IMG/VR virus record: IMGVR_UViG_3300030389_003255
Span: 1 to 64,000 of that record
Strand: one strand, 5' to 3'
From: a virus
DNA: 64,000 nt
The notes under the pieces were generated by a model. The model saw only the letters and a list, made by a program, of their open reading frames with translations, did not search any database and was not told the DNA's origin. Position 1 is the stretch's first letter. Each line of letters opens with the position of its first letter. Positions 2 to 59,625 of this stretch are shown piece by piece. A program made the translations under genes and the position numbers.

Positions 2-547
2 ATATTAGTAATTGGAGCAGGTGGTATTGGGAGTTTCTTGATACCGCTTTTAGACAAAGTAGAATTGTATGACATAACGGTAGCAGACCCCGATAAGGTA
101 GAAACAAAGAATCTACCATATCAAAATTTTCAAGTAACAGATGTTGGAAATAATAAGGCATTAGTAATGAAAGACCATTATTCATTAACCAAAGCCATAA
201 TATATCCTATTCTAACTGAAAAACAAATGCAAGGATATGATTTGGTTATTTGTTGTGTAGATAATTTAGGCCTTAGAAGAACAATGTATAACACAAAGAT
301 TAAGTGGTTAGACTTGCGGGCGCAAGGCAGGAATGCCGCACTTGTGAGCCATAAAGCCGACATTAAGATGTATGAAAGTTTATTGGCAGGTAAAGACGGG
401 TCATTCTCTTGTCAAGGAGATTCTTGGGATGGGAGTAACAAAGGAGTTCATTTTATGCAAGTTGCTATTGCGGGAATGGGCGCACAATGGATTCAAAGAT
501 ACTTCAATGATGAAGAAGTATGTGACTTCAAGGTGGTGAATGTATGA
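2..547 (+). CDS. E1/ThiF-like adenylyltransferase (5' end cut by window)
   Basis: The frame is open to the window edge. Its first visible residues form a Rossmann nucleotide-binding turn G-A-G-G-I-G (positions 14-31). This is followed by the ThiF/MoeB/E1 pattern D-x-D-x-V-x3-N-L-x2-Q and a later V-D-N segment around the usual catalytic Asp. Members of this family adenylate the C-terminal glycine of a ubiquitin-like or sulfur-carrier protein. No paired CxxC zinc motif is visible. The stop codon overlaps the start of the JAB metalloprotease, a pairing known from ubiquitin-like and sulfur-transfer operons. No ubiquitin-like partner is visible in the window; it may lie upstream. Confidence 0.75.
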   Translation: MLVIGAGGIGSFLIPLLDKVELYDITVADPDKVETKNLPYQNFQVTDVGNNKALVMKDHYSLTKAIIYPILTEKQMQGYDLVICCVDNLGLRRTMYNTKIKWLDLRAQGRNAALVSHKADIKMYESLLAGKDGSFSCQGDSWDGSNKGVHFMQVAIAGMGAQWIQRYFNDEEVCDFKVVNV

Positions 548-1065
548 GTAAAATGAAAGATAGATATTTCGATGAAATAAATAATGATGATGATGGATAT
601 GAAAAATATATGGAGGAACTAAGTGAGAAGAGGTTTTTGGCTGAGAGGCATATCATAGATAATTATGACAAAACAAAAAATATCAAAGATTTGTTTGAAC
701 CTATTTGGCATGCTTCCACTACAATTCTACCTCATTTAGAAGTTCAAGTTGTTATTGATGCTAACAGGGATATCCATGTCTCAACCGGAACAGCAGGATA
801 TGTAGACTTTCAAATAAATCCTGTTGGTATGAAACTACCTGTCGAATGTTGGATTCATACTCATCCTTTCGGTGTTGCTTATTTTAGTGGAACGGATATA
901 GGAACTGTTAGAGTTTGGCAACCCATTATGAAAGAAGCCTATGTATTAGGCGGAGTAGAACATTATGGCCATTGGACTCAAGATAGACCTAATGCACTAG
1001 ATATTTTTCATGACAATGAATATGAAGAAACACAAGTTTGGAATAGAAGAGGTGAAGAAGAATGA
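544..1065 (+). CDS. JAB/JAMM (MPN+) metalloprotease
   Basis: This is a 173-residue protein with a complete JAMM zinc signature: H105-x-H107-P followed by S115-x2-D118, giving the standard HxH-x10-D spacing. JAMM enzymes cleave isopeptide or peptide bonds after ubiquitin-like domains, or process sulfur carriers. The N-terminal 50 residues are acidic and probably helical. The start overlaps the stop of the E1-like gene (ATGA) and the end overlaps the GroES-like gene, so the four genes are probably translated together. Its target is unknown. Tailed phages also use JAB domains in tail assembly, but this copy is far from the tail genes. Confidence 0.8.
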   Translation: MSKMKDRYFDEINNDDDGYEKYMEELSEKRFLAERHIIDNYDKTKNIKDLFEPIWHASTTILPHLEVQVVIDANRDIHVSTGTAGYVDFQINPVGMKLPVECWIHTHPFGVAYFSGTDIGTVRVWQPIMKEAYVLGGVEHYGHWTQDRPNALDIFHDNEYEETQVWNRRGEEE

Positions 1066-1292
1066 AAGCATATGGAGATTGGGTTGTTCTGGAAAGAACA
1101 ACAAAGAAACTAGCAAGTGGATTAATGATTGATGCAGGTAATGTTGGATTAGTAGTAGATTCAGCAGATAAGAAAATCATAGGAAAGCGTGTTTTGTTTT
1201 CACAAAAGCATGAACAACATACCTATGGTGATTATTTCATGGTTCACAAAAATTCAGTAATGGCAATAATACAGGAAAAGGATGACGAATGA
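1062..1292 (+). CDS. GroES-like co-chaperonin (Cpn10)
   Basis: This 76-residue protein has the Cpn10 beta-barrel layout. An N-terminal G-D-W-V-V-L-E strand matches the D-R-V-(I/V)-V start of GroES. A short stretch takes the place of the mobile loop (T-K-K-L-A-S-G-L), then comes a G-K-R-V-L-F strand, and it ends with V-M-A-I-I as GroES ends with I-L-A-I-V. It is shorter than cellular GroES (about 95 residues), as expected for a trimmed viral form. It lies immediately before, and overlaps, the chaperonin gene, which strongly supports a functional GroES/GroEL pair for folding viral proteins. Confidence 0.7.
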   Translation: MKAYGDWVVLERTTKKLASGLMIDAGNVGLVVDSADKKIIGKRVLFSQKHEQHTYGDYFMVHKNSVMAIIQEKDDE

Positions 1293-2818
1293 TAATTAAA
1301 GGAACAGAAGTAAAAGAAAAACTATTGAAAGGAATAGACATAGTAGCAGAAACAGTAAAGCCTACACTTGGCCCACAAGCAAAAACAGTTATTCTTCAGG
1401 GCAAACCTCCTGTAATAATTAATGATGGAGTTACTATTACTAAATACATTAGTCACGATGACCCCTATATCAATATGGGAATTCAACTAGTTCAAAACTT
1501 AGCAAGTCAAGCACAAGATGAATCCGGTGATGGAACAACAACCGCTTGTGTTTTGGCTCAAGCAATATGTCATAAAATGCTAGAAGCAGATGTAAAGGAT
1601 GTTCACTCCTTCAACAAAACACTTAATGAACTTAGAGATACTATTGTTAGGAATTTAATGCACAGTGCCAAAGAAGTAAAAGATACAGATGTTTTAGATG
1701 TAGCCACAATAGCCGCTAATAATGATAGTGAAATGGGTTCATTGATTAATGAAGCAGTGGGTATGGTTGGAAGAAGCGGAATAATAACAGTAGAAGAATC
1801 TAATTCTTACAAAACGGAATTAGTCCTACGAGAAGGACTGGAAATCAATGAGGGATATCTAAGTCATCTAATGTGTAATACAGATGGTGGAAAGGTGGTG
1901 TATGAGAATCCTATCATCTTCCTATCTAATTTATCTTTTAATGCCTTCAAAGACCTAATACCTATGCTTGAGTATGCTAGTCAATCGGGTAGACCCCTAC
2001 TAATTTTATGTAAAGGTCTAGATAGTTCTGCCATGAATAATCTACTTATGAATATAATAAATAATACAGTTCAATGTTCAGCAATACTAGCACCTAACTT
2101 TGGTGATGAGCAATTGGATGAACTTCTAGACTTACAAACAGTGGTCGGAGGAAAGGTGTTTGCTTCAGAAGTAAAAGACGACCCTACTATATTTGTTGAT
2201 GAGTCCTTTGGAAGTTGTGAACGGGTAGTTATAACAAAAGAAAAGACCACCTTTATCGGAACTAGCGGGACAGAAGAAGCAGTAGAAAATAGAATACAGG
2301 AACTAGCGAAAACTCTAGAGGAAATAAAGGGACATAGAGCCGCTAGACTAAAGAGCAGAATTGCTAGACTTAAGGGAGGTATTGCTACCATTAAGGTTGG
2401 TGCATCTTCAACTATAGAAATGAGAGAAAAGAAAGAAAGATTAGACGATGCTCTTAATGCTACTAAAGCCGCTTTAGAAGAGGGAATTGTAGTTGGTGGA
2501 GGACTAACTTTAATTCAGGCTTGCGATACCATACCTTCTAAATATAATTGGTTCAAAGAGGCGTTACAAGCACCTTACTTAACTCTATTACAAAATAGCG
2601 GAAGAGACGACTTGATGGCTATAATTAAGGATAAGCATGTTAGAAAGGATATCGCCAAAGGTAATGGATTTAATGCCCTAACTAATAAAATAGAGAATCT
2701 ATCAAAAGCGGGTGTATTTGACCCAGTGAAAGTAACTAAGAGTAGTTTCTTAGCGGCTATGTCTATTGCTCAATTATTCTTTTCTACTGATGTAGCGGTT
2801 TTGTTACCGGAGGAATAA
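1289..2818 (+). CDS. groL: Group I (GroEL/Hsp60-type) chaperonin
   Basis: This is a 509-residue chaperonin. Near the N-terminus are T-L-G-P (26-29), N-D-G-V-T-I (45-50) and the ATP-binding G-D-G-T-T-T (80-85). The second half has the group I pattern G-G-I-A-x-I-K-V-G-A followed by E-K-K-x-R-x-D-D-A and G-G-G. The C-terminal domain keeps D-P-x-K-V-T. It lacks the glycine-methionine tail of bacterial GroEL. The sequence resembles bacterial GroEL rather than the archaeal thermosome, which is notable beside archaeal-type replication genes. It overlaps the GroES-like gene by four bases. Its likely role is folding of capsid or other viral proteins. Confidence 0.93.
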   Translation: MIIKGTEVKEKLLKGIDIVAETVKPTLGPQAKTVILQGKPPVIINDGVTITKYISHDDPYINMGIQLVQNLASQAQDESGDGTTTACVLAQAICHKMLEADVKDVHSFNKTLNELRDTIVRNLMHSAKEVKDTDVLDVATIAANNDSEMGSLINEAVGMVGRSGIITVEESNSYKTELVLREGLEINEGYLSHLMCNTDGGKVVYENPIIFLSNLSFNAFKDLIPMLEYASQSGRPLLILCKGLDSSAMNNLLMNIINNTVQCSAILAPNFGDEQLDELLDLQTVVGGKVFASEVKDDPTIFVDESFGSCERVVITKEKTTFIGTSGTEEAVENRIQELAKTLEEIKGHRAARLKSRIARLKGGIATIKVGASSTIEMREKKERLDDALNATKAALEEGIVVGGGLTLIQACDTIPSKYNWFKEALQAPYLTLLQNSGRDDLMAIIKDKHVRKDIAKGNGFNALTNKIENLSKAGVFDPVKVTKSSFLAAMSIAQLFFSTDVAVLLPEE

Positions 2819-12438: not shown

Positions 12439-14100
12439 ATGATAATTAACGCCAGTAGAAATAAAAAACAAATATACAAATCATGGAGAGAAAATGGCGA
12501 AAAGAAGTTTGAAAGAGTAAACTTTAGACCTTACTTTTTCATTAAAGAAAATGAGCATAGACCTTCAAATTATCAAGTCACTAAATATGTTCAAGGTGAA
12601 TTTGAATATGAAGATGGAGAGTTTTACAACTTACAGAAAGAAAAATTAGTAAAAGTATATTACGAAAGCGGTGCAGATAGCAAGGCTAAAAACTGTTTCA
12701 GAGAAACCTTTGAGGCAGATGTTCCTTATCATTTTAGGTATGCAGTAGACTGTATAGATGAAATGCCTATTTATGAAATGCGTAAATGGTATTGGGATAT
12801 GGAATGGCAACAAGGCGGAGAACATGATGGTTGCATTACTACCATTGTGGTGTATGATAATTATGATAAGCAATACTATCAGTGGGCGTGGTTTCCAAAT
12901 GATACGCCATTAGATAGTGTTTTTGATACACCCGATTATCAACATACAGGAATTAGATATATTTTTAATTCTGAAAAAGATATGATTGATTCTTTTATAG
13001 AAACTATGATGTTAAAAGACCCCGATATGTTGATTGCATGGTTTGGTCTTAAGTTCGACTTACCTAAGTTACTAGATAGAGCCTGTGCATTAGATATAAA
13101 TCCATTATCAATGTCACCTATCAACCACATAAAGGGAATAAAACTAACTAAGAATAAATTTGTTTTTACCAAACAAGATGGCTACTCGCCAATAGAACAA
13201 CCAATAGCGGGCAGGATAACACTTAATCTAGATTTAGCATTTGAAAGACAATGGAATGACTCTCAAAGAGGAACATTACCCTCATTGAGTCTTGATTATG
13301 TTTCTAAGACTTTATTTGACGAAGGTAAAGAAATGAATACTAAGTTCGATGACCCTAATGAATTTTATCGTAGAGCATGGTTAGAAGATACGGAAGCATA
13401 CTTACATTATGCGTTAGTAGATGTAAAACTATTAGTTAAGATAGATGAAACTAACTTTTGTAGCGAAGCAATACTGTCACTACAAAGATTGCTGAAAGCA
13501 CCATTTGATGCTTGCTTTTACGCTTCTCACATGGGTTCTATTTACTTTATGAGAAATGCTTGGTGGAAAGCACCAACTGGCGATAGAAGTGTAGAAAGAA
13601 GAGAATATGATGGGGCTATGATTTATGACCCATTAAGTGAACAAACTCAAGGCTTACATCTTAATGTAGCCGCTTTTGATTTTGCAGGTCTATATCCTTC
13701 GATGATGGTTGCTAGAAATATATCTTGGGAAACTAAATCAAACGACCCTACTGCCTTTGCTGTAAATATATCTACTCCTAGAGATTTTAGCGAAGTAACT
13801 ACAACTAACATGATGTATTATTCTACAACTGAATTGGGTCTTTTACCTAAAGCAGTATTAGAATTAAAGGAGTTAAGAAACGACTACAAAAAGAGAATGA
13901 AGAACTCTGACAATAAATTAGAATATCAAAAGTGGTATAATAACCAAATGGCGGTCAAGAGATTAATGGCTTCCTTTTATGGTGTATTAGCATTTCAAGG
14001 GTTTGGTTGGGCTGATGTAGATTTAGCCGCTAGCATTACTGCTAGTGCTAGAGAGGCAATTAGATTAGCGGCGTTTAAAGCGAAGGAGTTGGAAGTATGA
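12439..14100 (+). CDS. polB: DNA polymerase B, N-terminal part (exonuclease, motifs A and B)
   Basis: This 553-residue part carries the 3'-5' exonuclease. Exo I is D120-x-E122, Exo II is around K-F-D207, and Exo III is Y324-x3-D328. Polymerase motif A follows, D414-F-A-G-L-Y-P-S421, then motif B K507-x4-S-x-Y-G515. It stops before motif C, which is the first element of a second gene starting at 15,217. Joined end to end the two parts give one complete polymerase with no loss at the junction. In Exo II the usual Asn before F-D is absent. Confidence 0.95.
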   Translation: MIINASRNKKQIYKSWRENGEKKFERVNFRPYFFIKENEHRPSNYQVTKYVQGEFEYEDGEFYNLQKEKLVKVYYESGADSKAKNCFRETFEADVPYHFRYAVDCIDEMPIYEMRKWYWDMEWQQGGEHDGCITTIVVYDNYDKQYYQWAWFPNDTPLDSVFDTPDYQHTGIRYIFNSEKDMIDSFIETMMLKDPDMLIAWFGLKFDLPKLLDRACALDINPLSMSPINHIKGIKLTKNKFVFTKQDGYSPIEQPIAGRITLNLDLAFERQWNDSQRGTLPSLSLDYVSKTLFDEGKEMNTKFDDPNEFYRRAWLEDTEAYLHYALVDVKLLVKIDETNFCSEAILSLQRLLKAPFDACFYASHMGSIYFMRNAWWKAPTGDRSVERREYDGAMIYDPLSEQTQGLHLNVAAFDFAGLYPSMMVARNISWETKSNDPTAFAVNISTPRDFSEVTTTNMMYYSTTELGLLPKAVLELKELRNDYKKRMKNSDNKLEYQKWYNNQMAVKRLMASFYGVLAFQGFGWADVDLAASITASAREAIRLAAFKAKELEV

Positions 14101-15216: not shown

Positions 15217-16101
15217 ATGAAAGTAGTTTATGGCCATACAGATTCTATTTATGTTCAAGTAGATTCTGTAGCAAAAGCGCAAATGATTTGTGCTGATATA
15301 CAAGATAGTGTAAGAGAACATTTTCCTAATGTTATGGGATTAGAGCAACACCCAGTTGTATTAGAGTTCGAGAAATACTATTCAGCATTAGGTGTCGGCA
15401 CAACTAAGAATAGAAACGCAGGAATGATTACATGGAAAGATGGCGAATGGCTAGATGAAGCAGAGTTCGTTATGACAGGCTTCACTGCTAAAAGAGTTAG
15501 TGAAACAAAGTTAGCCAAAGAAGTTCAAACAGATGTTTTGAAATGGTGGGTATCTCAAGAAACATTAGAGCAAATTAATTCTAAACTAAGTAGCACCTTT
15601 AATGATGTTCTTAGTGGTAATTACCCATTAGAGGATGTAATTAAAAGAAGTAGACTGAGAGAAGATAGGTTTACAGTTAAATGCCCTCAATGTAAAACCA
15701 AGTATGATTTAAGAAACATAAAAGAACTGAAATACTGTAAGAAGTGCAGTGTTAGTCCTTCTAAGTTTAGAACACTAGAGGGCAGAAACCCAAGTATCGG
15801 TTCAGGAATAGCGGGCGTAATTCATGCTTGTCAAAGCAATTCTAATACTTTTGATGATTCTTATCTTTATTTAAAAGTAATAAGTAAAGAAACATTTACT
15901 CATCCCTTAACTAAAGAGAACAAGCAAGTTCAGTATTTAGCAGGTTCTAATTATAAGGACTTTGAGGGTTCTTTGCCGGACTGGAAGCATTATGCAGAAC
16001 AAGTGATTAGAAAAGCAGAACCGATTTATCGAGCGATGGATTGGGACATATCTAACATAAGAACAGGAACAATACAAAAAACACTAGGAGACTGGTTTTA
16101 A
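15217..16101 (+). CDS. polB: DNA polymerase B, C-terminal part (motif C, zinc site, PIP box)
   Basis: This 294-residue part begins almost at motif C, Y-G-H-T-D-S (5-10). Only the catalytic Asp of the usual D-T-D is kept, because His replaces the first one. A thumb domain follows. A four-cysteine zinc knuckle (C156, C159, C174, C177) lies in the middle of this part. The protein ends in the PCNA-interaction box Q-K-T-L-G-D-W-F (287-294). It must assemble with the N-terminal part to be active. Split family B polymerases are known in some archaea, including Methanothermobacter and Nanoarchaeum. Confidence 0.93.
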   Translation: MKVVYGHTDSIYVQVDSVAKAQMICADIQDSVREHFPNVMGLEQHPVVLEFEKYYSALGVGTTKNRNAGMITWKDGEWLDEAEFVMTGFTAKRVSETKLAKEVQTDVLKWWVSQETLEQINSKLSSTFNDVLSGNYPLEDVIKRSRLREDRFTVKCPQCKTKYDLRNIKELKYCKKCSVSPSKFRTLEGRNPSIGSGIAGVIHACQSNSNTFDDSYLYLKVISKETFTHPLTKENKQVQYLAGSNYKDFEGSLPDWKHYAEQVIRKAEPIYRAMDWDISNIRTGTIQKTLGDWF

Positions 16102-48664: not shown

Positions 48665-51154
48665 TTATTTTGGTATTTTCACAGAATTAAATTTATCTTC
48701 GTAAATATCCCAAATACCCTCATCTCCGGCTTTATCGGCAGGTTTTTGTTTATATCCAGTCCATGCTAGCCACATCTTTTTATCTTCAACAGGTAAATAT
48801 CTAATATGTAACTTAGTCTCAAATTTGTTACCTTCTAAGAAATATTCGTGATATCCATTTCTTTGTATTCCTAATTTTATCTTACCGTAATCAATGGTTT
48901 TTTTGTTTTGAACATTTTCTGAAACCTCAGCAGGGTATTTTCCCGCCGCACCAAATAAATCAAACAGTTCTTTTTCATCGTCAATCTCAATAGTCCAATG
49001 TAAATTTTTATCTTTTAATCTAATTGAAAATTGTATATTATTATCTTCTCTAAGTGATATTTTGAATTCACCCTCTCTATATTTTTCAGGAGTTTCATAT
49101 TTTTTAATTTCGTCTGCACCAAATTTAAATTCGGGGTCTGCTTTTATTTTATTATTCTGTCCTTCTAATATCGGTTCTCGCTGAACAGCCCAATCTCTTA
49201 GTTTGTTTTGTTTAGCATCTAGTATATCTTGATACAAACTCCTATGATTAGTTATTAAGAATTCATGTAGTTGTCGAGTTGTCTGCTCTCCCTTCTTAGT
49301 TAGGAATTGATGAATAGCCGCAGTAAGTTCTCCCTGTTTTGTTTTCATTATCTCTATTGCCTTGCTTTTCCACATATCTAAATCTGCTAAAGCATTCTTT
49401 GACATTAAATTGTTTTCTTCAAAGCCATACAGGGTAAAACCATTCATATCGTATTTGAGAATAGCAGTAGTTTCTCCATGAACATAATCTGTTACCTTGA
49501 TTCCTTTTTCCAATGCTGAAACATCATAGTTCAAAGACTTCTTTGTGTCTTTAGCAAGCATGGCTAAAGTAACTAATTTATCCGGATATTCTACTTCCGG
49601 AACTTCGATTACCTTAGCAGAAAATAAAGAGTAGCCGTTAGCCGTTTTCTTAACTTCATCTACCTTTACTCTAATAATATCCCCAACATCAACCGCTATC
49701 TTAGTGTTTAGTGCTTTACCTACATTTAGATATCTTGTATCATCTATTTCAACAGTATTAGGTATATCATCTAGTATTGGGCCAACTCCTACACTATAAG
49801 AATGCAAGCCACTTTTTGTCTTAGTTTTGCTAAGAACCACTACATCTAAATCTACAAACTTCTTCCATTTGACCCACTTAGGATTCTTTTTAGTTCCCAC
49901 ATAATATATTGAAGTAATGTCTTTTATCATGACTCCTTCCGCAGTAGGAATATCCATTATGTCTTTAGAGTATTCTGCTACCTCCTTAATTGAATCAGCA
50001 AAGCGAGTATCTTTCTTTGAGGGGAAAAGCAGAACATCAGAAGAGTGCTGTGAATAATTATTAAACAAAGTCCTAATTCTACTATCTAATTCTTCTTCTA
50101 ATAACATTTGAGAATCGTGTCTCATAATATCAAAGACATGGGCTTTTAGAGTGGCTTCAGGATATTTATTTTTAAACACATGAGCAATTGTATCAGCCCG
50201 ATGCAGTGCTTCTTTACCATCAAATAAAATCAATTCTGCATCTAAAATACACTCTCCGAAGTGTTTTGCTTTTAATTCTTTAACTATGTCTTTACACTTT
50301 TCAGTAATATCCTTTTCATTATATGAGTATATCTTTACATTACCGTCTATCTTATGCAGTTGTATTCTCATACCGTCATACTTTTCTTGAACAATATATT
50401 CTCCACTAAATCCTTTTAGTTCGTTCATATCATTTATCTCAAATATTCTATACATTGGTTTGTTGGGAATAATAAAGTCGCTTTGGGCTTTTTCTGCTTT
50501 CTTCATATCAATATCTAAAAGTTCATCCCAATCTTCTTCACTGTGTTGTGAAAAGTAAATTAACTCTAACATATCCATAGCGGCTTTAACTTTGGATTTG
50601 ACTTTTTTAGAATCTTTATCATCACCATAGTTTTCTATTATGTATAGTGCTACATCATCCGGTTCTAAATCTAGTCCTGCTAGTCCATCGGTTAAAGTAT
50701 CCTCTTCCATATCTTTTATTTGTAGGGTTTCTTTTCCTAGCGCATGAGTGTTATCTCTGATAGCATAATGAACAAACTTAACCATAGATTCAGGATTATC
50801 TAGTAACTCTTCTAAGACACCCTCTCCAAATCTTTTGGCAAATGGGTCTATAACGACATCCGATTTATATCTAATAAGTTTAATATCTTCATAAAGTTCT
50901 CTTGCTTGAGGAGATGTGGGGTCACTAACATCTTGATGTTCTAATAGATTTCTTTCTATAAAGTTCTTTAATTCTCTGCCTGCTATATCTAAGTCATCAT
51001 AAGATTCTCTAACTTGCTCTACAGCCTTTCTCCATTTGTGACCGTATTCTTTAGGGTCACTATTAGCCGATAAGAAAGCAACTCTAGATATCTCAAATAA
51101 TTTTACTAACTCTACCGAAGGACGCTTATCCTTTTCTAAAGAGCCGAGTTTCAA
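48665..51154 (-). CDS. second ATP-dependent DNA ligase, large, in the virion module
   Basis: An 829-residue protein. Residues 1-230 form an unfamiliar helical region. The nucleotidyltransferase core has K258 in E-K-Y-D-G-M-R, motif III D305-A-E, motif IV E-G-V-M-I-K and motif V W-V-K-W-K, then an OB fold to about residue 520. The rest holds extra domains; the last 130 residues (I-Q-F-S-I-R-L, then E-G-N-K-F) recall the LigD 3'-phosphoesterase fold but lack its histidine pair. Its place beside the scaffold suggests it may be packaged or act in DNA repair at entry. Confidence 0.85.
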   Translation of the reverse strand: MKLGSLEKDKRPSVELVKLFEISRVAFLSANSDPKEYGHKWRKAVEQVRESYDDLDIAGRELKNFIERNLLEHQDVSDPTSPQARELYEDIKLIRYKSDVVIDPFAKRFGEGVLEELLDNPESMVKFVHYAIRDNTHALGKETLQIKDMEEDTLTDGLAGLDLEPDDVALYIIENYGDDKDSKKVKSKVKAAMDMLELIYFSQHSEEDWDELLDIDMKKAEKAQSDFIIPNKPMYRIFEINDMNELKGFSGEYIVQEKYDGMRIQLHKIDGNVKIYSYNEKDITEKCKDIVKELKAKHFGECILDAELILFDGKEALHRADTIAHVFKNKYPEATLKAHVFDIMRHDSQMLLEEELDSRIRTLFNNYSQHSSDVLLFPSKKDTRFADSIKEVAEYSKDIMDIPTAEGVMIKDITSIYYVGTKKNPKWVKWKKFVDLDVVVLSKTKTKSGLHSYSVGVGPILDDIPNTVEIDDTRYLNVGKALNTKIAVDVGDIIRVKVDEVKKTANGYSLFSAKVIEVPEVEYPDKLVTLAMLAKDTKKSLNYDVSALEKGIKVTDYVHGETTAILKYDMNGFTLYGFEENNLMSKNALADLDMWKSKAIEIMKTKQGELTAAIHQFLTKKGEQTTRQLHEFLITNHRSLYQDILDAKQNKLRDWAVQREPILEGQNNKIKADPEFKFGADEIKKYETPEKYREGEFKISLREDNNIQFSIRLKDKNLHWTIEIDDEKELFDLFGAAGKYPAEVSENVQNKKTIDYGKIKLGIQRNGYHEYFLEGNKFETKLHIRYLPVEDKKMWLAWTGYKQKPADKAGDEGIWDIYEDKFNSVKIPK

Positions 51155-51168
51155 AACAACCCCGCCCT

Positions 51169-51417
51169 TTAGAACTCATATGTATCTCCGGCTTGGCCGT
51201 AACCTACATTTGTTCCTTCTTTTTGACTTTCTGGAACATTTTCCTCTTCTTTTGCTTTAGGTCTTTTTAGTTTCACTGCTTCATTTTTATCTTCAGAGGG
51301 AAGCCTATTATTATCTGTAAGAGATTGATGTAGTATTTCTTTAACCTCTTTAGCCTTCTCTATGGTCATAGAAATGACTCTTTCTTCCTTTGTTACTCTT
51401 TCCGGCATATACATCAT
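51169..51417 (-). CDS. small charged hypothetical protein
   Basis: An 82-residue, highly charged helical protein with Lys and Glu clusters. It overlaps the stop of the W-S-E-I-H-K-tagged gene by four bases. No family recognised. Confidence 0.5.
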   Translation of the reverse strand: MMYMPERVTKEERVISMTIEKAKEVKEILHQSLTDNNRLPSEDKNEAVKLKRPKAKEEENVPESQKEGTNVGYGQAGDTYEF

Positions 51418-51644
51418 CCCATACTGTCTACCATTTTATGAATTTCGCTCCATTCCATGCCACTTACTTCTTCCTTAGTATCTATTACTTTCATTGTAGG
51501 AGATGGGCTATCAACAACAACAAAACCGGATTTCATTAATAGATTATCGTCATTGTAAACCGTTCTTTCTAAGTTTTCTATCTTAGCAGTAAGGGCTTTT
51601 ATTATTTCAAGTAGTTCTTTATTAATTGATTCTTCTTCACTCAT
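51414..51644 (-). CDS. small coiled-coil protein with C-terminal W-S-E-I-H-K-M-V tag
   Basis: The start is ATG 51,644 after GGTGAG. The 76-residue product has a short coiled-coil (about 8-30) and ends in E-W-S-E-I-H-K-M-V, an exact match to the end of the protease-scaffold (W-S-E-I-H-K-M-V). The shared motif suggests the same binding partner, most likely the coat protein. It may be a minor scaffold or an internal head protein. Confidence 0.65.
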   Translation of the reverse strand: MSEEESINKELLEIIKALTAKIENLERTVYNDDNLLMKSGFVVVDSPSPTMKVIDTKEEVSGMEWSEIHKMVDSMG

Positions 51645-52002
51645 CTTTCTCACCTTTTCTTTTTGGATAAACTAAATCTCTAATCTGTCTATAAAGCAGT
51701 TCATACTCTTTACGAAGTTTCGTAGCAGTGGCGACTATATCAATATTCCTTTCATCCATTGACTTAACCTTTTTATTTAATTTTTTATCGGCTTTGGTAA
51801 AATCTAAGCCATCAATCATCTCTAATAAATCGCCTAATTTGGTAAAATCTTGACCAAAAAATTCAGTTGGTTCAGCCGCTTGTAATGTTTTCTTTAATTT
51901 CTTTTTCTGTTTAGGGTTCAAAGAGTCTAATATATTTTGAGACTTCTTTTCCTCTTTAGATATATCGAATGTTTTTCCCTCTTCATAATAATCCCATGTC
52001 AT
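51637..52002 (-). CDS. hypothetical head-module protein
   Basis: A 121-residue helical, Lys-rich protein. It begins M-T-W-D-Y-Y, which shares only the first three residues with the tagged family. No domain recognised. It overlaps the next gene by eight bases. Confidence 0.55.
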   Translation of the reverse strand: MTWDYYEEGKTFDISKEEKKSQNILDSLNPKQKKKLKKTLQAAEPTEFFGQDFTKLGDLLEMIDGLDFTKADKKLNKKVKSMDERNIDIVATATKLRKEYELLYRQIRDLVYPKRKGEKDE

Positions 52003-52027
52003 TTTATCAATCTCCTTTTAGCCTTCT

Positions 52028-52360
52028 TTAATTCATCTTCGCAAGTTCTCTTAACTGAACTAATAACGGATTAAAATCATTTTGTAGTTTATTTTGTAAT
52101 TTCGACTCATCTCCCATATAGGAATTTTCATAATAGTCTATTAGGTCATATGCCTCTTCAAGAACTTCTTGAAATTTTCTTCCACGCTCAGTTTGAAAAA
52201 ATCCCTCTTTTTCCTCATTTACAAAATCTCCATAATCATCTAATATGGCTCTTTTTTTAGAGAATAATTTATTCCTTTTTCCTGCCACTTCGGGCATAAA
52301 TCTCCTTGCATCTGATATTGCGTCTCTTGTGCTTATTTTTATAATATCTTTCCATGTCAT
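52028..52360 (-). CDS. tagged small basic protein (M-T-W-K-D-I-I-K)
   Basis: A 110-residue helical protein beginning with the tag M-T-W-K-D-I-I-K. The rest is charged and not recognised. The ribosome site AAAGGGATTG lies before the start. It is the member of the tagged group closest to the capsid genes. Confidence 0.6.
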   Translation of the reverse strand: MTWKDIIKISTRDAISDARRFMPEVAGKRNKLFSKKRAILDDYGDFVNEEKEGFFQTERGRKFQEVLEEAYDLIDYYENSYMGDESKLQNKLQNDFNPLLVQLRELAKMN

Positions 52361-52364
52361 TTTA

Positions 52365-54068
52365 TCAATCCCTTTTATCTAACATATTTCTAACTATATT
52401 TATCTGTTCTTGTAAAGAATCAAATCTAGTATTTACTCTGTCTACTAACTCTCCAATAAGTCTAACTTCTTTAGGGGTAGTATCTCCTATTCCTGCTCCT
52501 ACTTTTCCATACATATTCAGGTCTAGACTTACACTCTTTTCGGCGTTTCCTATCCACTCTTCTAAAGACTGTTCATTTTCTTTGTTTAGTTGTCTTAATA
52601 TTCTGTCTATTTCCTTTATTCCCTGTGCGGCAAGTTTTACTTTGTTGCCTAAAGTCACTTGGGCTTGGAATATCTCTTGGTCTCCTGTATATTCTCCAAT
52701 CAGACCCCTAGCGTTACGAAATAGTGGCCTATATTTTTCTACAGTTTTTAATTTAGTTTCTATTTCTGCAAGTCTTTCTTTTTCTATTTTCAACTGACCT
52801 TCTATTTCTCTTTGAATGTCTTTTCTTGCTTCCTGTAATATTTCCGGCTGTGCAGACTGAAGTTCTTCCAACATATCTTCTATCTGTTTTTTGGTTAATC
52901 TTCTAGAAGTGCCTCCTAATTTTACTCTAACTGCTCCCTCGGCCTCTTCAACTAACTGTCGCCTTGGGTCTGATTTTCTCAACTCCCTTTTTTTCTTAGC
53001 ATCTCTTTTGTATCTCTCTAATCTAGCAGTTTCTTTTTTTCTTTCTCGTTCAATGCTTTCTGCTATCTTTCGTTGCTGTTCTTCTTCTTCAGGAGTTTTA
53101 TCCCTCTTAGGTTTTTTACCAAGGGCTTCTCTAAACTTACTATCATCTACTAATGTCCTATCTGTATCATCGGAAGCAATATCCGGTAGTCTCTGCGCCA
53201 CATATTCAGCAACTTTTCTTTGAACAGTAGAATAGGCTAAGGTCAGAGCCTTCATTCTTCTTTCAATTAGTATTTCTAAGTCAGCGTCCTTTAGAGTATC
53301 TAAATCATCAATCTGTTTAGTTAGTAATTCTTTAGCACTCATAAGTTCACTAAAAGCAAACATGCTCCTATTTAACGAATTAAGCATGTCCTGTTGTATT
53401 TCCCTTTGTCTAACTATTCCACCGGTAGGGTCGCCAATAACTATGGAACTAAGAAGTCTATTCAGTTGTTGTCTACTTTTAGGTTTATCAATTAAAGAAG
53501 GAGGTATTTCACCGTTAAATCTTCTAGTATATAGCCCCTGTAAAAAAGTTAGAAAATCTTCGTCTGCACCTAGTTCGGTATATTCCCGTTGTAGTTTTTT
53601 AACATCTACTAATTCAGAACTATCGCCTTCTCCCAATCTAAACTTTCCATCAATAATAAATTCTTCATAAGGTTGCTCCATCAAAAGATTTCTTCTACTC
53701 TGTAAAAATACCAACTTGTCGATAATGATATTTATATTGGCCTTACTTATTTTCTTGAAAGTATTTCTAGACATTATATCATAAATTCCATCTTCTACTG
53801 TTCCTCTTTCCTTTATATTTTTCATGTCTTGTAGATATTGATTAAGGACTCTAATATCTCTAGCGGGTTTTCTTCTCCGCTTTTTAGCCATATCGGTCTT
53901 TAGCCTTTCAGCCGCTTCCTCTACCTCAGTTTGTTTAGTTCTATCTTCTAAAGGGTCGAGTCCCTCACTAAAATCTTCTTCTAATTTTTTATCTTCTTCT
54001 AAGTCTCTTGCTATTTCGTCAGGTATGAAGTCATCATCCTCATCTTCCTGTTTGAAAAACAAAGTCAT
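52365..54068 (-). CDS. long coiled-coil protein of the head module
   Basis: A 567-residue, highly charged protein with a strongly acidic N-terminus (about 1-45) and long coiled coils (about 310-460 and 530-560). No enzyme motif. It lies between the portal and the tagged genes. It may be a portal-associated or internal core protein. Confidence 0.55.
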   Translation of the reverse strand: MTLFFKQEDEDDDFIPDEIARDLEEDKKLEEDFSEGLDPLEDRTKQTEVEEAAERLKTDMAKKRRRKPARDIRVLNQYLQDMKNIKERGTVEDGIYDIMSRNTFKKISKANINIIIDKLVFLQSRRNLLMEQPYEEFIIDGKFRLGEGDSSELVDVKKLQREYTELGADEDFLTFLQGLYTRRFNGEIPPSLIDKPKSRQQLNRLLSSIVIGDPTGGIVRQREIQQDMLNSLNRSMFAFSELMSAKELLTKQIDDLDTLKDADLEILIERRMKALTLAYSTVQRKVAEYVAQRLPDIASDDTDRTLVDDSKFREALGKKPKRDKTPEEEEQQRKIAESIERERKKETARLERYKRDAKKKRELRKSDPRRQLVEEAEGAVRVKLGGTSRRLTKKQIEDMLEELQSAQPEILQEARKDIQREIEGQLKIEKERLAEIETKLKTVEKYRPLFRNARGLIGEYTGDQEIFQAQVTLGNKVKLAAQGIKEIDRILRQLNKENEQSLEEWIGNAEKSVSLDLNMYGKVGAGIGDTTPKEVRLIGELVDRVNTRFDSLQEQINIVRNMLDKRD

Positions 54069-54077
54069 TTAATCACC

Positions 54078-54302
54078 TTAGAATGGAATATTTTCTTTTT
54101 TTCCTCTCTGTTTAGGTGGAAGAGTTATCACATCGGGGATATCCGCACTACTAGGCCTTGGTTTTGGTGTAGTGTCTTTTGGCAGTCCTACACTAAAATC
54201 TCTATTTTTAGTAGTCTTTCTACTTTCGTTGTTATTAGCGGCTCTCACCTGTGCCAACTCTTTTCTTAGTCTTATTTCTTTTTGTCTATTATCTTCGGTC
54301 AT
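54078..54302 (-). CDS. small basic/polar hypothetical protein
   Basis: A 74-residue protein, charged N-terminal helix and Pro/Lys-rich tail, likely disordered. It overlaps the portal stop by four bases. No family recognised. Confidence 0.5.
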   Translation of the reverse strand: MTEDNRQKEIRLRKELAQVRAANNNESRKTTKNRDFSVGLPKDTTPKPRPSSADIPDVITLPPKQRGKKENIPF

Positions 54303-55933
54303 GGTATTCTCCTCTCACTTCTTCTATCTACATTTTGATTGCCAGCATCTTCGGGTAATCCTGTTAGTCGCTTATCCGGCCCTACACTCATAGAAGGTTT
54401 ATTTCTTGTGGTTGCTGGATTTTCTTGTTTCTTTGAACCTTGTAGTTGTTGTTCTTGCATTTGTCCCAATTGACTTGCATCAATATTAGTTCCCGCATAA
54501 GGGTCTAGTTCGACTTTATTCTCACTAGAACCTTCTTGTGGGGGTTCTTCAACAGGTTCGGGCTTTTTGAAAGTAAAGTTTCCGTCCTCATCCATTTCAA
54601 CTTCAAAGCCTAGATTCTTAGTAGAGGCCGCAATATTAACTTCGATTTCTCTTTTTCTTAATACTGCTATTTCATCTTCTTCTTCGCTCGGTGGTAGTTT
54701 TAGATTCCAGTCAGTAATGCCGAATTGCTTAACTAAAAATGGAAATACATAATTGTTGTAAACATTCTGTGCCATTTGAACGGCTCTATTAGTTACTAAT
54801 ATCTGCATGCCTTCATTATTCAATCCACCACTAGTAGTATTATCTGCCATAAACACTTTACTAACTCCAAAGAAAGCAGAAATTCTATCTCTCAAATCAT
54901 CCTTAACAGAAACATATTCCATTTCTTTTAGACTATCCATAAATTTAATCCATTCTACAGAACCTTTGCCCTCTGCTTCTATACCCATAATAGGAATAAA
55001 GTGAGGGTCTTGTTCCATCTTTTCTTTTACGGCTTTCCAAAAAGATTGCATAGAATCCATATTTCTAGTCTGAACTGCTAATAATCCTCTAGGCATACGG
55101 CTTTTAGTATAGGAAGAATTGACATAATTTTCCATAGCAATAAGTGTCATTATGTTATTAAATAAGGTAACAATAGGAGATTGACCATATAATCTAGAAG
55201 GACTATACTTACTAAAATGTAATACTTCTCCTTTCAAGAAATACTGTTCTTCTCCAGTTGCCCTATTAACATAATGAACAGGAAATGTCTTAGCACCGCA
55301 ATGTTCACAAGGAACATGAGCGTCTTTTGAGAAAAATTCTCTATGATTAACACAAGTAAAAGCAGTATTTCCTCTTTCTCCATATTCATCAGTATAGATA
55401 TACATTGTTGCAGGGTCGCCACGATACACTTCTTTGATTCGATGCATTCTAATATCGCCATTACCATCTAAAAAGTATTCTTTTACCAATACGATGTAAG
55501 CGTCATCCATAACATTTAGGTCATCTTCTAATTGTTTTAGCACATCAATAAACAACTGCTCTGATTTATTGACATATCCCTCGATAAACTCCTCTGCATA
55601 TTTTAATTGGTCTACATCCGGAACTTTTAGTTTTTCACTACCACATCTAGAACATTCAGAGACAGGCCTTTGGTGTTTCTTTTTACAGTCTAAACACATA
55701 GCCTCGTATGCCTTTTCCCAAACATACCCTCTACGAAATATCTCTTGTTTTAATTGAGTGATACAAGTTCTAACAATTACCGACTGATTTACTATGTGGT
55801 AAATTAGAGGGGCAGTCATATGATAGGTATTTGGCCTCTCTTGTATTCCTATATTGTAGATTTGCCTATCAGCAGGTTTTGGAGTAGTTCTTCTAAATAA
55901 ATTCCTAATTGAGAATCGTCTTTGCTCAACCAT
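54299..55933 (-). CDS. portal protein with two zinc-binding insertions
   Basis: A 544-residue portal of the head-to-tail channel. The crown and stem region has the recognisable R-D-R-I-S-A-F-F-G-V-S-K-V-F portal segment (about residue 370), followed by the long N-R-A-V-Q-M-A-Q-N-V helix. Two zinc-type clusters are inserted in the N-terminal half: C80, C83, C94, C97 and C194, H197, C209, C212. The C-terminal 100 residues are acidic and polar. These insertions are unusual and may mark archaeal-virus portals. Confidence 0.88.
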   Translation of the reverse strand: MVEQRRFSIRNLFRRTTPKPADRQIYNIGIQERPNTYHMTAPLIYHIVNQSVIVRTCITQLKQEIFRRGYVWEKAYEAMCLDCKKKHQRPVSECSRCGSEKLKVPDVDQLKYAEEFIEGYVNKSEQLFIDVLKQLEDDLNVMDDAYIVLVKEYFLDGNGDIRMHRIKEVYRGDPATMYIYTDEYGERGNTAFTCVNHREFFSKDAHVPCEHCGAKTFPVHYVNRATGEEQYFLKGEVLHFSKYSPSRLYGQSPIVTLFNNIMTLIAMENYVNSSYTKSRMPRGLLAVQTRNMDSMQSFWKAVKEKMEQDPHFIPIMGIEAEGKGSVEWIKFMDSLKEMEYVSVKDDLRDRISAFFGVSKVFMADNTTSGGLNNEGMQILVTNRAVQMAQNVYNNYVFPFLVKQFGITDWNLKLPPSEEEDEIAVLRKREIEVNIAASTKNLGFEVEMDEDGNFTFKKPEPVEEPPQEGSSENKVELDPYAGTNIDASQLGQMQEQQLQGSKKQENPATTRNKPSMSVGPDKRLTGLPEDAGNQNVDRRSERRIP

Positions 55934-55985
55934 ATAACTTACCCCTAATCATTCTCAATCTACTACACATTATAGTATCTTTGGC

Positions 55986-56324
55986 TCAACTTCCCTTTCG
56001 CCATTTTTTATTTTTCTTTTCTTTTGTTTTTCTAGGACTCCATTTTACTTTATCAGCCCAATAAGCCGCAGACATTTTACCCCTCTTAATATTCTTCTTA
56101 TGTCTACTTTTGAAAGCCCTTCGCTGTCCTGCGGTTTGATTTGTTTTTACTCCTTGTTGTCCAAACCTAATTGTTTTTACTTTATCACCATCTTTTACAA
56201 CAACAATGTGAGATTTACTTGGGTGCTTTGGAGTTCTTTTTGGCTTGCTAAATCCACTTACTCCGGCTCTAGCAAGAGCAGGATGTTTCTTCTTCTTTTT
56301 GAGAATATCCATCCAATTACTCAT
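55986..56324 (-). CDS. tagged basic protein with phage cationic domain
   Basis: The start ATG 56,324 gives M-S-N-W-M-D-I-L-K followed by Lys-rich sequence. The 112-residue product contains K-T-I-R-F-G, R-R-A-F-K-S-R-H and A-A-Y-W, a pattern I recall from small cationic domains on phage head proteins. It is strongly basic, so it probably binds DNA. It overlaps the PAP2 gene by eight bases. Confidence 0.6.
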   Translation of the reverse strand: MSNWMDILKKKKKHPALARAGVSGFSKPKRTPKHPSKSHIVVVKDGDKVKTIRFGQQGVKTNQTAGQRRAFKSRHKKNIKRGKMSAAYWADKVKWSPRKTKEKKNKKWRKGS

Positions 56325-56889
56325 AAGCATCACCTAACATATATCCTATTTTTTTTCCCGCCTCTATATCGCTTGGATAGTGGCTTCCCATCTGTATTCT
56401 AGATAATGATATTCTATCGGCCATTTGTTTTAATTGTTTCTTCTTTTTCGGAAACTTTCTACCTAACACTCTTTCTAACCCATGTGCTAGCATAGAATGA
56501 CCACTAGGGAAAGCAGGAGTATCATCGGTTGTTGTTTTCGTTGTGGGTATTTTATTACTCACTTGAAATGGTCTAGGTCTTTTATATTTCATTTTTTCAG
56601 TGATAGCGTAGTGATTCACATCTAACATAAAATCTTCATAGTCATCCCTATTCTCTCCAACGATTTTAAACATCTCTATATCAGGCTTTAAATCAGCATC
56701 TTTCATTTCTGTTGGTTCAAGTTTCTTTTCTTTCATAACCTTTAGAACTTCAGGTATTTCTTTTTCTTCTTTAGGGTAACTCATTTCAGGTATCTTTATT
56801 TTTATTGATGGAGTTCTCTTTAAGGATTCTTTTCTATTAGCGGCAAGTTCTCCCTGCCACTTTCTTTTGAGAATATCCATCCAACTCAT
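56317..56889 (-). CDS. tagged soluble PAP2-family phosphatase
   Basis: The start ATG 56,889, just after the preceding stop, gives M-S-W-M-D-I-L-K at the N-terminus. The 190-residue product has the full PAP2 signature: K99-x6-R106-P107, P128-S-G-H131, and S163-R-x5-H170-x3-D174. The conserved catalytic His is H170. Unlike most PAP2 enzymes it has no membrane helices, so it is probably soluble. With the tag it is a candidate enzyme carried in the head. The substrate could be a phospholipid or a nucleotide; this cannot be told from sequence. Confidence 0.82.
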   Translation of the reverse strand: MSWMDILKRKWQGELAANRKESLKRTPSIKIKIPEMSYPKEEKEIPEVLKVMKEKKLEPTEMKDADLKPDIEMFKIVGENRDDYEDFMLDVNHYAITEKMKYKRPRPFQVSNKIPTTKTTTDDTPAFPSGHSMLAHGLERVLGRKFPKKKKQLKQMADRISLSRIQMGSHYPSDIEAGKKIGYMLGDAYE

Positions 56890-56893
56890 GCTA

Positions 56894-57097
56894 TCACTTT
56901 GGTTTATGAGTGTAAATATCTCCATCTTTATGCATGAATATCTTACCGTCTTTTTCTAATTCGGCTAAGGCTCGTTTTATTTCCGCTTCTTCACCAAATT
57001 GTTTTAGATTCTTCATACCCAATGCCCCGCCTTCTTTTTTAATTTCAGCAAGAATTTTTGCTTTTATGTCTTGTTTTATTATGTCCTTCCATGTCAT
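56894..57097 (-). CDS. tagged small winged-helix-like protein
   Basis: A 67-residue protein with tag M-T-W-K-D-I-I-K, then two helices and a hairpin ending in I-F-M-H-K-D-G-D-I-Y that resembles a winged helix. It likely binds DNA. The stop lies four bases before the PAP2 start. Confidence 0.6.
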   Translation of the reverse strand: MTWKDIIKQDIKAKILAEIKKEGGALGMKNLKQFGEEAEIKRALAELEKDGKIFMHKDGDIYTHKPK

Positions 57098-57549
57098 GCT
57101 TTCATCCTCTTTGTTTTTTCCTTGCTTGATTCTCTTCTTGCTAATGCTACTTTATGTGCCGCATTCAATCTCTTTTTTGCTTCAGGGTCTTTAGCCCTTC
57201 TAGCCGCAACTCTCGCTCTTTGTTCTACTAAATTAATTATTTGTGATTGTCTTTTGTGAGGTTTATCTTTAAACGCAGAACTTGAGAAGGTTTCTCTTAC
57301 ATCTTGTGCTGTTCTAAATTTTACGGGAACAGTATCTTTTGGATTCTCATCTGTATATAGCCTTCTAGCAGAACCCTTTGGTTTTTTACCAGTTCCTTTT
57401 TTGGGGTCTTTCTTTAGAATATCTTGCCAACTCTTTTTTACATAACCGCTAGCATAAGCCGCTTGAGCGACTTGAACCGCTTTCTTTCTTGTTTTAAATG
57501 GCCCTCTAGAACCCCAATAATAACCATCTTTCTTTTTAGTAATAGGCAT
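57094..57549 (-). CDS. basic protein with internal tag and DUF6321-like domain
   Basis: The start is ATG 57,549 (151 residues). A first 40-residue domain (Y-Y-W-G-S-R-G-P-F) is followed by the tag as an internal copy, S-W-Q-D-I-L-K-K at about 40-47. The second half carries G-T-G-K-K-P-K-G-S-A-R-R-L-Y-T-D-E-N, a cationic domain I recall as DUF6321 in phages. The internal position suggests the short N-terminal domain was added in front of a tagged protein. Confidence 0.6.
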   Translation of the reverse strand: MPITKKKDGYYWGSRGPFKTRKKAVQVAQAAYASGYVKKSWQDILKKDPKKGTGKKPKGSARRLYTDENPKDTVPVKFRTAQDVRETFSSSAFKDKPHKRQSQIINLVEQRARVAARRAKDPEAKKRLNAAHKVALARRESSKEKTKRMKA

Positions 57550-57554
57550 ATTAA

Positions 57555-57863
57555 TCACTTTCTAGTAAATTCAGTAGTTTTTTTATATCTCTCAGCAATA
57601 TTAGCCCCTACCACTATACGCATTCCCACTTGACCCATCCAATTATTAAGTTTAGAATATATTGACCTTCTATTTCTAAAAATATTTGAAGGAACATTAT
57701 TTATTTTCATATTCTGTATGAACTTATCAATAAATTTTTTATCCTTTAAATTAAACTTTTGACCTGTAGGTATTTCTTCAACTGTTTGTATCAAAGACTT
57801 CTTAACTTTTTTAAAATGCTTGCTTAAAAAATTAGAAGATTTCAAAATACTAATCCATTTCAT
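57555..57863 (-). CDS. tagged basic protein (M-K-W-I-S-I-L-K)
   Basis: A 102-residue basic protein with N-terminal tag M-K-W-I-S-I-L-K. The remainder is helical, Asn/Lys/Arg-rich and not recognised. Confidence 0.6.
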   Translation of the reverse strand: MKWISILKSSNFLSKHFKKVKKSLIQTVEEIPTGQKFNLKDKKFIDKFIQNMKINNVPSNIFRNRRSIYSKLNNWMGQVGMRIVVGANIAERYKKTTEFTRK

Positions 57864-57869
57864 GGTTAA

Positions 57870-58358
57870 TCACCTGCCTCTATCAAAAGATTGTTCTAAA
57901 TCTTTAGCATATCTAAGCATATTCCTACCTTCTCTGATTCTTTTTCTACTACCAGTCATTAACAACTCGCCAGTTAGTTTCATCATCTTTATTGTTTTTT
58001 GAAACATGGCTTCTGTTCCTTCATCTAACTTATCGGAATATTTTCTACGCTGTGTATATTTTCCCCTTTCAAAATCTTTCAAAACATTCTCAACTATTCC
58101 ATTAGTAATCGCTTGTTGTAGACTACCTTGCGATAATTCAAACCATCTACCATCAGCATAAAATTCAGCAAGAAAATTATAATACTCTTGAAATTTTTCC
58201 TGTGGAACTTGTATCGGTATTGAAGAAAGATTTTGAGGTTTAGATGTAAAGACATTACCTATATTTTGTTTAGTTCCTTTTCTTTGTAACCAAAGATTAG
58301 CATTAGTGGCCATTCTGCCAACTATTGCTGTTTGTTTGATTACACTTAACCAAGACAT
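57870..58358 (-). CDS. tagged helical protein (M-S-W-L-S-V-I-K)
   Basis: The start ATG 58,358 gives M-S-W-L-S-V-I-K; an in-frame GTG nine bases earlier overlaps the previous gene. The 162-residue product is basic and helical with no recognised domain. Confidence 0.6.
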   Translation of the reverse strand: MSWLSVIKQTAIVGRMATNANLWLQRKGTKQNIGNVFTSKPQNLSSIPIQVPQEKFQEYYNFLAEFYADGRWFELSQGSLQQAITNGIVENVLKDFERGKYTQRRKYSDKLDEGTEAMFQKTIKMMKLTGELLMTGSRKRIREGRNMLRYAKDLEQSFDRGR

Positions 58359-58363
58359 TTCAA

Positions 58364-58633
58364 TCACTTTTGACTAAACTTTTTTCCTGTTGGAACATGC
58401 TGTTTTCCTTTCTTTCGGCCTTTTCTTTTCTTAGCATCTTGATACCTTAGAGTTTTTTTATCTGTTCTTTTGTAAGTTGCTCTTGGCATGTATCTTCCTT
58501 TAGTTTTAGATTTAGGTTTTTTACCCTTATCTTTGGCTCTATGCTGTTCAGCACTTCCCCAATCCTCATCAGTCCATGTGGATAAATCCCGTTGCCTTTT
58601 TGTTTTGGCTTTGAGGATATTACGCCAATTAAT
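58364..58633 (-). CDS. tagged cationic protein, apparent ATT start
   Basis: No ATG lies near the expected start. ATT at 58,633 overlaps the preceding TAA by one base and would yield M-N-W-R-N-I-L-K, matching the tag, in an 89-residue protein. A GTG at 58,645 would add four residues before the tag. The body (Y-M-P-R-A-T-Y-K and the Lys/Gly-rich end) is a cationic head-protein type domain. Confidence 0.55.
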   Translation of the reverse strand: MNWRNILKAKTKRQRDLSTWTDEDWGSAEQHRAKDKGKKPKSKTKGRYMPRATYKRTDKKTLRYQDAKKRKGRKKGKQHVPTGKKFSQK

Positions 58634-58841
58634 TCTTATAGCCACCACCAGCCCTTTTATATGCTTGAGCCAACATTTGTGCTTTTCTTGCAGACCATTG
58701 ACCTGCCGCACCACCCTTAGTTCCTCTTTTTATTCTATTGAATATTCTTTTACGCATAGCGGGTTTAGTGTAATTACCCGACTGATTAACAGTTGATTTT
58801 CGCTTTTTCTTTTTCTTTTTCAATACATCTTGCCAACTCAT
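58629..58841 (-). CDS. tagged basic protein with DUF5872-like domain
   Basis: A 70-residue protein beginning M-S-W-Q-D-V-L-K followed by a run of Lys. The rest, Y-T-K-P-A-M-R-K-R and G-Q-W-S-A-R-K-A-Q, matches the DUF5872 cationic domain I recall from phages and large eukaryotic viruses, suggested to be DNA-binding. Confidence 0.65.
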   Translation of the reverse strand: MSWQDVLKKKKKKRKSTVNQSGNYTKPAMRKRIFNRIKRGTKGGAAGQWSARKAQMLAQAYKRAGGGYKN

Positions 58842-58857
58842 CTTTTATCACCTTTAA

Positions 58858-59625
58858 TTATATCTTGCCTCTTTGCCTTAACAGTTGTATTGCTTGTTTA
58901 TATGCCTCATCTGCTCTATAATCCCAGTTTTGATTGATATTTATTCCCATCTCTTCTGCAACATCTTGTTTCAATGGAATTTCTTTATTCATATTAACTA
59001 GCATGTTTACGGTTTCTTTAACCACATTAGGGTCAATTTTTCTTTCATCTGTTTTTTGCCCCACACTACCTGCTAATTTAACTGCACCCTCGACGGGTTC
59101 TAAGCCCTCTACTCTCATAGTTTCCATAAATAGTCGTAGTGTTTCGGGGTCAGTTAAATCAATATAGTATTTATCATTAGCATATTCAGTTAATTTAACA
59201 GGGTCATTGAATATTTCTAATTTTTCATCAACAGACATATATGTATTTAATCTTCTTTGTAAGTTATTTTCTTTCTTAATTAATTTTCTAAGTTGCCGTT
59301 CTAATTGTTTATTTCTTTTAGCGTTATATTTTATATCTTCATCATAATAACTGCTATTGTCCCAACTATAGTTTTCTTTTTTAGAATTTTCATAATCTTC
59401 TTTAGTTTGAAAGATTACAATTTTATTATTGTATAAGTCTATTTCTCCTAAATTATTTTGATTAACATTGTCTATTATTTCGTTAATTTGTTTTACTACT
59501 TTTTTTAACTCGTTTGAAGTTTTTGTGACCATGCCTTTAAAGTTCTGCACAAAAAAAGGTTTAATTTCTTCTACAAAAGTTCTAACCCTACCAAGACTAC
59601 TTTTTAATATATCCTGCCATCTCAT
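58858..59625 (-). CDS. tagged coiled-coil protein (M-R-W-Q-D-I-L-K)
   Basis: A 255-residue protein beginning M-R-W-Q-D-I-L-K-S-S, preceded by GGAGGTAAAGGT. Central coiled region (about 95-125), then a charged C-terminal half. It is the largest tagged protein. No enzyme motif is visible. Confidence 0.65.
   Translation of the reverse strand: MRWQDILKSSLGRVRTFVEEIKPFFVQNFKGMVTKTSNELKKVVKQINEIIDNVNQNNLGEIDLYNNKIVIFQTKEDYENSKKENYSWDNSSYYDEDIKYNAKRNKQLERQLRKLIKKENNLQRRLNTYMSVDEKLEIFNDPVKLTEYANDKYYIDLTDPETLRLFMETMRVEGLEPVEGAVKLAGSVGQKTDERKIDPNVVKETVNMLVNMNKEIPLKQDVAEEMGININQNWDYRADEAYKQAIQLLRQRGKI

Follow-up and report, generated by a model that had tools for sequence, protein, structure and literature searches.

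A magrovirus (Magrovirales) probably encodes a self-contained cassette for conjugation and deconjugation of a ubiquitin-like protein (Ubl) that relies on an E1 only, and resembles in this respect archaeal SAMPylation. The cassette includes the Ubl, a ThiF-like E1 and a JAMM/JAB metalloprotease, which very likely work as one functional unit. That the output of the unit is the conjugation of proteins is a fairly probable reading, and the virus probably tags proteins in the course of infection.

Organization of the locus

The window, i.e. the whole stretch of DNA analyzed, makes up the opening 64 kb of a virus record of 92,771 bases (92.8 kb). The earlier note had described an E1/ThiF-like gene and a JAMM gene overlapping by four bases and followed by chaperonins, and coordinates, Pfam hits and fold matches all agree with this description (Table 1). 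Overlaps of 4 bases join ThiF to JAB (ATGA), JAB to the cochaperonin, and the cochaperonin to cpn60. The latter matches the PHROG chaperonin groEL family (5.4e-111), and is 37% identical to phage GroELs; the cochaperonin family is kept beside cpn60 in most loci. GroES/GroEL have been reported for the family Aoguangviridae, and the gene content of the record (PolB, RFC, ATP ligase, TFB, GroEL/ES) agrees with the Aoguangviridae/Magrovirales description (PMC10768690).

Table 1. Coordinates of the cassette genes and of the adjacent chaperonin genes
Feature	Position	Strand	Remarks
E1/ThiF-like adenylyltransferase, ~186 aa in full	2..547	+	open at the left edge of the window
JAMM/JAB metalloprotease, 173 aa	544..1065	+	E66, H105-x-H107-x7-S115-x2-D118
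Cochaperonin-like (GroES-like) protein, 76 aa	1062..1292	+	from ORF and position; translationally coupled to JAB
Chaperonin, phage GroEL-type cpn60	1289..2818	+	Pfam Cpn60_TCP1 2.7e-46
Ubl ORF, 68 aa	record 88583-88789, outside the window		upstream of ThiF, at a distance of 3.7 kb counted through the record junction

The final 280 bases of the record are an 88% identical copy of positions 1-281 of the window, the final 77 being identical. At this end of the record (92477-92771) the ThiF gene starts as MKRKILVIG..., with the initial ~4 codons, the only ones missing from the gene in the window. Judging from these repeated ends, the record is most likely closed within the ThiF gene, at a spot that varies in the population. 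The same genes are uninterrupted in relatives of the record, where intact ThiF proteins measure mostly 184-188 aa. As the end of the record re-enters ThiF, the region upstream of the window is the other end of the record. The earlier note had suggested to look there for a Ubl gene ending in Gly-Gly, and a 68-aa ORF was indeed found; its Gly-Gly carries a short C-terminal tail, which the JAMM protein could remove.

Additional features mark the record. Protein C-termini made by EEE or EE are common where the start of the next gene overlaps (e.g. window 1040-1065 and 2810-2818), and are probably caused by the purine-rich ribosome-binding site of the following gene. DNA polymerase B is split in two ORFs (window 12439-14100 and 15217-16101), ~1.1 kb apart, with small genes between. 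Some twenty or more late proteins, encoded at positions 51000-59700 of the window (- strand) and 63000-78000 of the record (L004, L003), share the N-terminal leader M[ST]Wx[DN]I(L)K, as in MSWVDILKETITQ...; several of them form a tandem family, and the shared stretch resembles a tag for virion targeting, or a leader tag.

The ubiquitin-like protein

The Ubl ORF of this virus (MIKLRIMNDTGHTDL...VDLVNAIVGGNL) has the C-terminus ...VGG-NL. The Gly-Gly pair is invariant in 65/65 distinct Ubl sequences, and is followed by two residues in 48, by one residue in 1, by none in 16. The two-residue tails are of 22 kinds (NL, SL, CY, SC, QE, HC and others). An invariant Gly-Gly with an unconstrained short tail has the appearance of a precursor which is trimmed. 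The Gly-Gly codons vary synonymously and, in magroviruses, no gene begins just downstream, which rules out a disguised ribosome-binding site. As a control, a conserved C-terminal Gly-Gly was found in 2 of 41 conserved families of these loci, the other one being ribonucleotide reductase.

The protein is confidently predicted to adopt the ubiquitin fold. The AF2 model (pLDDT 88) has the beta-grasp topology b-b-a-b-b-(a)-b, and its matches in PDB are mostly ubiquitin, NEDD8, SUMO and ISG15, with probability mostly 0.8-0.99 and E-values of 0.003 or worse. Matches in BFVD include giant-virus ubiquitins and phage tail-tip proteins. Sequence methods detected no relation to PDB Ubl chains, and no match of the Ubl to PF02597 (ThiS/MoaD family) was found in eight records. 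Searches for Ubl relatives in named phages returned only chance matches inside long proteins of 201phi2-1 and of a Vibrio phage.

The ThiF-like E1 and the JAMM protease

The earlier note had considered that the complete ThiF gene might prove to be a different Rossmann enzyme. The window protein matches Pfam ThiF above cut-off (E 1.3e-14), and E1 residues are mostly conserved. The profile of the family matches UBA3, UBA5, Cap2, MoeB, Uba4, ThiF and BubCD in PDB. In the family alignment the Rossmann ATP-binding features GxGGI, DxD, K56, D91-N92 and R96 are invariant or nearly so; Cys141 (SCQ) is invariant, and lies beyond the point where alignments to PDB entries end. The arginine of the NLxRQ motif, an ATP contact carried by PDB E1s such as UBA3 and 9egb, is replaced by Tyr44 in all members (NLPYQNF), and adenylation by the viral ThiF is therefore not certain.

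The window JAB protein alone matches Prok-JAB below cut-off (E 0.0086), and 27 of 28 members of the JAB family match this model. The JAB profile matches solved AMSH-family deubiquitinases (DUBs; AMSH-LP, E 4e-5), and the HxHP...S..D stretch aligns with that of AMSH-LP. Across an alignment of 28 relatives, residues E66, H105, H107, S115 and D118 of the zinc motif show no or almost no variation, E66 having been assigned by conservation and alignment. The AF2 model (pLDDT 84) retrieves with Foldseek the JAMM DUBs BubCD (first), AMSH-LP, CSN5 and CsRpn11; the probability of the top PDB matches is mostly 0.97-0.99, with low TM-scores and modest E-values (>0.001). Values of dN/dS are 0.09-0.17 for JAB and about 0.07-0.34 for ThiF, and all three cassette genes are under purifying selection. 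The JAMM gene is retained also where the Ubl has no tail; trimming cannot thus be its sole role, which argues that the enzyme may additionally deconjugate the modifier.

Linkage of the three genes in viruses

A scan of viral contigs for ThiF led to 68 loci. The order TFB-ThiF-(insert)-JAB-cpn10-cpn60 is found in about 60 related loci, and the arrangement of ThiF, JAB and chaperonins is thus not due to chance. The insert, a gene located between ThiF and JAB in other magroviruses and absent here, is most often HTH/Myb-like. Inserts were considered as Ubl candidates, and none of those read is a Ubl.

The Ubl was found in 7/7 records of at least 80 kb examined, that is this record and six others, all retrieved through ThiF, which were searched whole by profile; JAB is present in all six. 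The reverse scan, in which the Ubl was used as bait, identified 202 relatives, 80 of which were examined as loci. ThiF lies downstream of the Ubl in 76 of the 77 bait loci with at least 6.9 kb (about 7 kb) of downstream sequence; in the remaining one, the sequence ends just before the ThiF position. JAB was found downstream in 50/77. In the 27 loci with no JAB match ThiF is located >5.1 kb downstream or past the end of the sequence, and the position of JAB would accordingly fall mostly beyond the end of the sequence examined.

The association extends to tailed phages unrelated to magroviruses, which carry a sigma-70-like factor and Pol I. In two phage loci (L073 and L075) a small ORF ending in ...LTNALVGG is followed by JAMM, and then by ThiF. 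The small ORF of L073 and the magrovirus Ubl are similar in BLASTP (E 3e-6, in a two-sequence comparison). Ubl, JAMM and ThiF are contiguous also in L102, whose ThiF is 69% identical to that of L073. One phage contig, possibly incomplete, carries Ubl and ThiF, and JAMM was not found in it.

A 413-aa protein (record 89550-90791; L003:13550-14791) is encoded between Ubl and TFB in nearly all magrovirus loci, and is possibly an extra component of the cassette. It was considered as an E2 and set aside: Pfam returned nothing for it, and its comparison by hhalign with the upstream protein of the phage gave 1.5%.

A cellular origin of the genes was also considered and rejected. Relatives of ThiF on genome contigs were found only in bacterial MAGs, assigned to Maricaulis (L094 and L096) and Altibacter (L095). 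L094 shows the magrovirus gene order, and by this order is a mis-binned virus sequence in GTDB genomes.

Proposed function and alternatives

In the proposed mechanism, the 68-aa beta-grasp Ubl would be synthesized in precursor form, carrying a dipeptide behind Gly65-Gly66. JAMM would trim the dipeptide and expose Gly66, which the ThiF-like E1 would adenylate; the Ubl would then be taken, probably, as a thioester on Cys141. The activated Ubl would be transferred to lysines of viral or host proteins with no help by E2 or E3, as UbaA does with SAMPs, and the same JAMM would take it off again. E1-only conjugation is established for SAMPs. No UQ_con match was found in the records searched; this model is weak for prokaryotic E2s, and a divergent E2 may be present. 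No E3 and no substrate were identified. The adjacency of chaperonin and TFB genes suggests, as a speculation, that the system acts on viral proteins just after their synthesis, or on the transcription or proteostasis machinery. Precise trimming after Gly-Gly has been demonstrated for the Caldiarchaeum JAMM, which acts on an archaeal ubiquitin precursor (PMC6043591), and Ubl-proteasome targeting has been described in archaea (PMC4895103).

It is rather unlikely, though worth weighing, that the Ubl serves as a sulfur carrier. The E1, together with a host cysteine desulfurase or rhodanese, would make a Ubl thiocarboxylate, the sulfur would be donated, for example, to host or viral tRNA, and JAMM would mature or regulate the carrier. 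E1s of the ThiF/MoeB/Uba4/TtuC type carry out such activation, and MoeB, Uba4 and ThiF are among the matches of the viral profile. The best TM-score among the PDB fold matches listed for the Ubl (0.58) is that of a sulfurtransferase entry, 5ztb. Yeast Urm1 performs both modifier and sulfur roles (PMC5349211), and the Ubl system is linked to archaeal tRNA thiolation (PMC4048286). Against this, the thiamine and Moco sulfur pathways have no JAB, according to Iyer et al. 2006 (PMC1779556). Rhodanese, ThiS and ATP_bind_3 (NcsA/TtuA-type thiolase) were found neither in this record nor in seven comparison records. A sulfur pathway complete in the virus itself is therefore unlikely, but enzymes of the host, sulfurtransferases included, could serve and supply the sulfur. 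The 25 top early-gene families contain no sulfur enzyme.

Interference with the modifier of the host, which we take to be a member of the Poseidoniales, is less likely still. Here viral Ubl, E1 and JAMM would compete with host SAMP conjugates, or strip them, and thereby protect viral proteins. A comparable role has been proposed for Borgs, whose JAMM proteins are predicted to act as deSAMPylases (PMC12660748), and bacterial Ubl conjugation boosts anti-phage defence (PMC10097602). For such a task, however, JAMM alone would do, whereas the E1 and a dedicated Ubl are conserved alongside it in every complete record tested; moreover, a JAMM can act exclusively on its own Ubl (PMC6043591). The earlier note made its reading depend on the existence of a ubiquitin-like substrate in host or virus; the virus encodes one of its own, and a self-contained system is thus likelier than the simple editing of host SAMP conjugates.

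That the 68-aa protein is a protease inhibitor akin to T4 PinA (a Lon inhibitor), unrelated to the ThiF-JAB pair, is very improbable: 14/22 Ubl members (L003:12583-12786 and homologues) match PF10465 of Pfam weakly (E 1.4e-4 at best; with 20.1 bits, the first member is below the cut-off of 27) and the PHROG Lon-inhibitor family is hit at E 0.0085, but hhalign of Ubl to T4 PinA gives a probability of 15% over 44 aa, PinA has no C-terminal Gly-Gly, and an inhibitor would not explain why the protein ends in an invariant Gly-Gly, why its fold is that of ubiquitin, or why Ubl, JAMM and ThiF form contiguous operons.

Relation to known systems

The E1-only conjugation cassette favoured here is most similar in plan to the Haloferax SAMP/UbaA/HvJAMM1 system, which features a beta-grasp modifier ending in Gly-Gly, a single MoeB/ThiF-type E1, no E2 or E3, and a JAMM deconjugase. 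In contrast to the Haloferax system, the magrovirus genes are virus-encoded and linked in one region, the E1 measures only ~186 aa and has NLPYQ for NLxRQ, the modifier matches neither ThiS/MoaD models nor PDB chains in sequence, and most Ubl members have a precursor tail. Caldiarchaeum CsUb/CsRpn11 also features a Ubl precursor with residues after Gly-Gly that a JAMM removes, but includes an E2 and a RING E3, and the tail measures 9 residues (PMC6043591), against 0-2 residues and no E2 found in magroviruses. E1, JAB and Ubl are likewise linked in bacterial JAB+E1+Ubl operons (PMC1779556), CBASS Cap2/Cap3, Bil and Bub. Many of these Iyer-type, Cap, Bil and Bub systems contain E2 domains, and belong to defence or to cells, whereas the magrovirus set is made by core genes of a virus order.

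Phage ThiF proteins with a JAB, the latter featuring a similar ...FSGTD JAMM motif, are known in crAss001 (gp76-77), DAC15 and ME3 (PRTRC-like), and the two genes are side by side in crAss001 and DAC15. Their annotation goes no further than thiamine biosynthesis and metalloprotease, the terms used in crAss001, or hypothetical. Unlike its magrovirus counterpart, ThiF has in these phages a long extension at the N-terminus. The beta-grasp-like proteins encoded nearby, crAss001 gp79 and DAC15_91, lack the Gly-Gly end of the magrovirus Ubl, and no relative of this Ubl was found in crAss-like phages or ME3. Phage E1-JAB pairs are thus broader than magroviruses, but with other modifiers. ThiF, JAB and beta-grasp-like protein form a single gene run in crAss001 (gp75-79, L078) and DAC15 (L077), which is probably another viral system of Ubl type.

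Significance

Ubiquitin-like proteins are carried by eukaryotic giant viruses. A search of the literature retrieved no paper pairing magroviruses with ubiquitin; the founding magrovirus paper was outside this search, and may hold a prior mention. A complete modifier-E1-protease set as conserved core of an archaeal virus order was not found in the search either, and for E1/Ubl systems of phages and jumbo phages nothing of the kind was retrieved beyond Iyer 2006 (PMC1779556). With sizes of 68, 186 and 173 aa, the three proteins would form one of the smallest ubiquitin-like systems. Their size makes them testable in vitro, and they may be informative on E1-only conjugation and on the origin of ubiquitin systems. 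Magroviruses are ubiquitous in the surface ocean, where they infect one of the most abundant archaeal groups (PMC10160649). On balance, and with some reserve, we lean to the view that an entire, abundant order of marine archaeal viruses has a viral ubiquitin among its core genes, would process its precursor, and would attach it during infection, with only an E1, to proteins of the virus or the host, independently of the ubiquitin system of the host.
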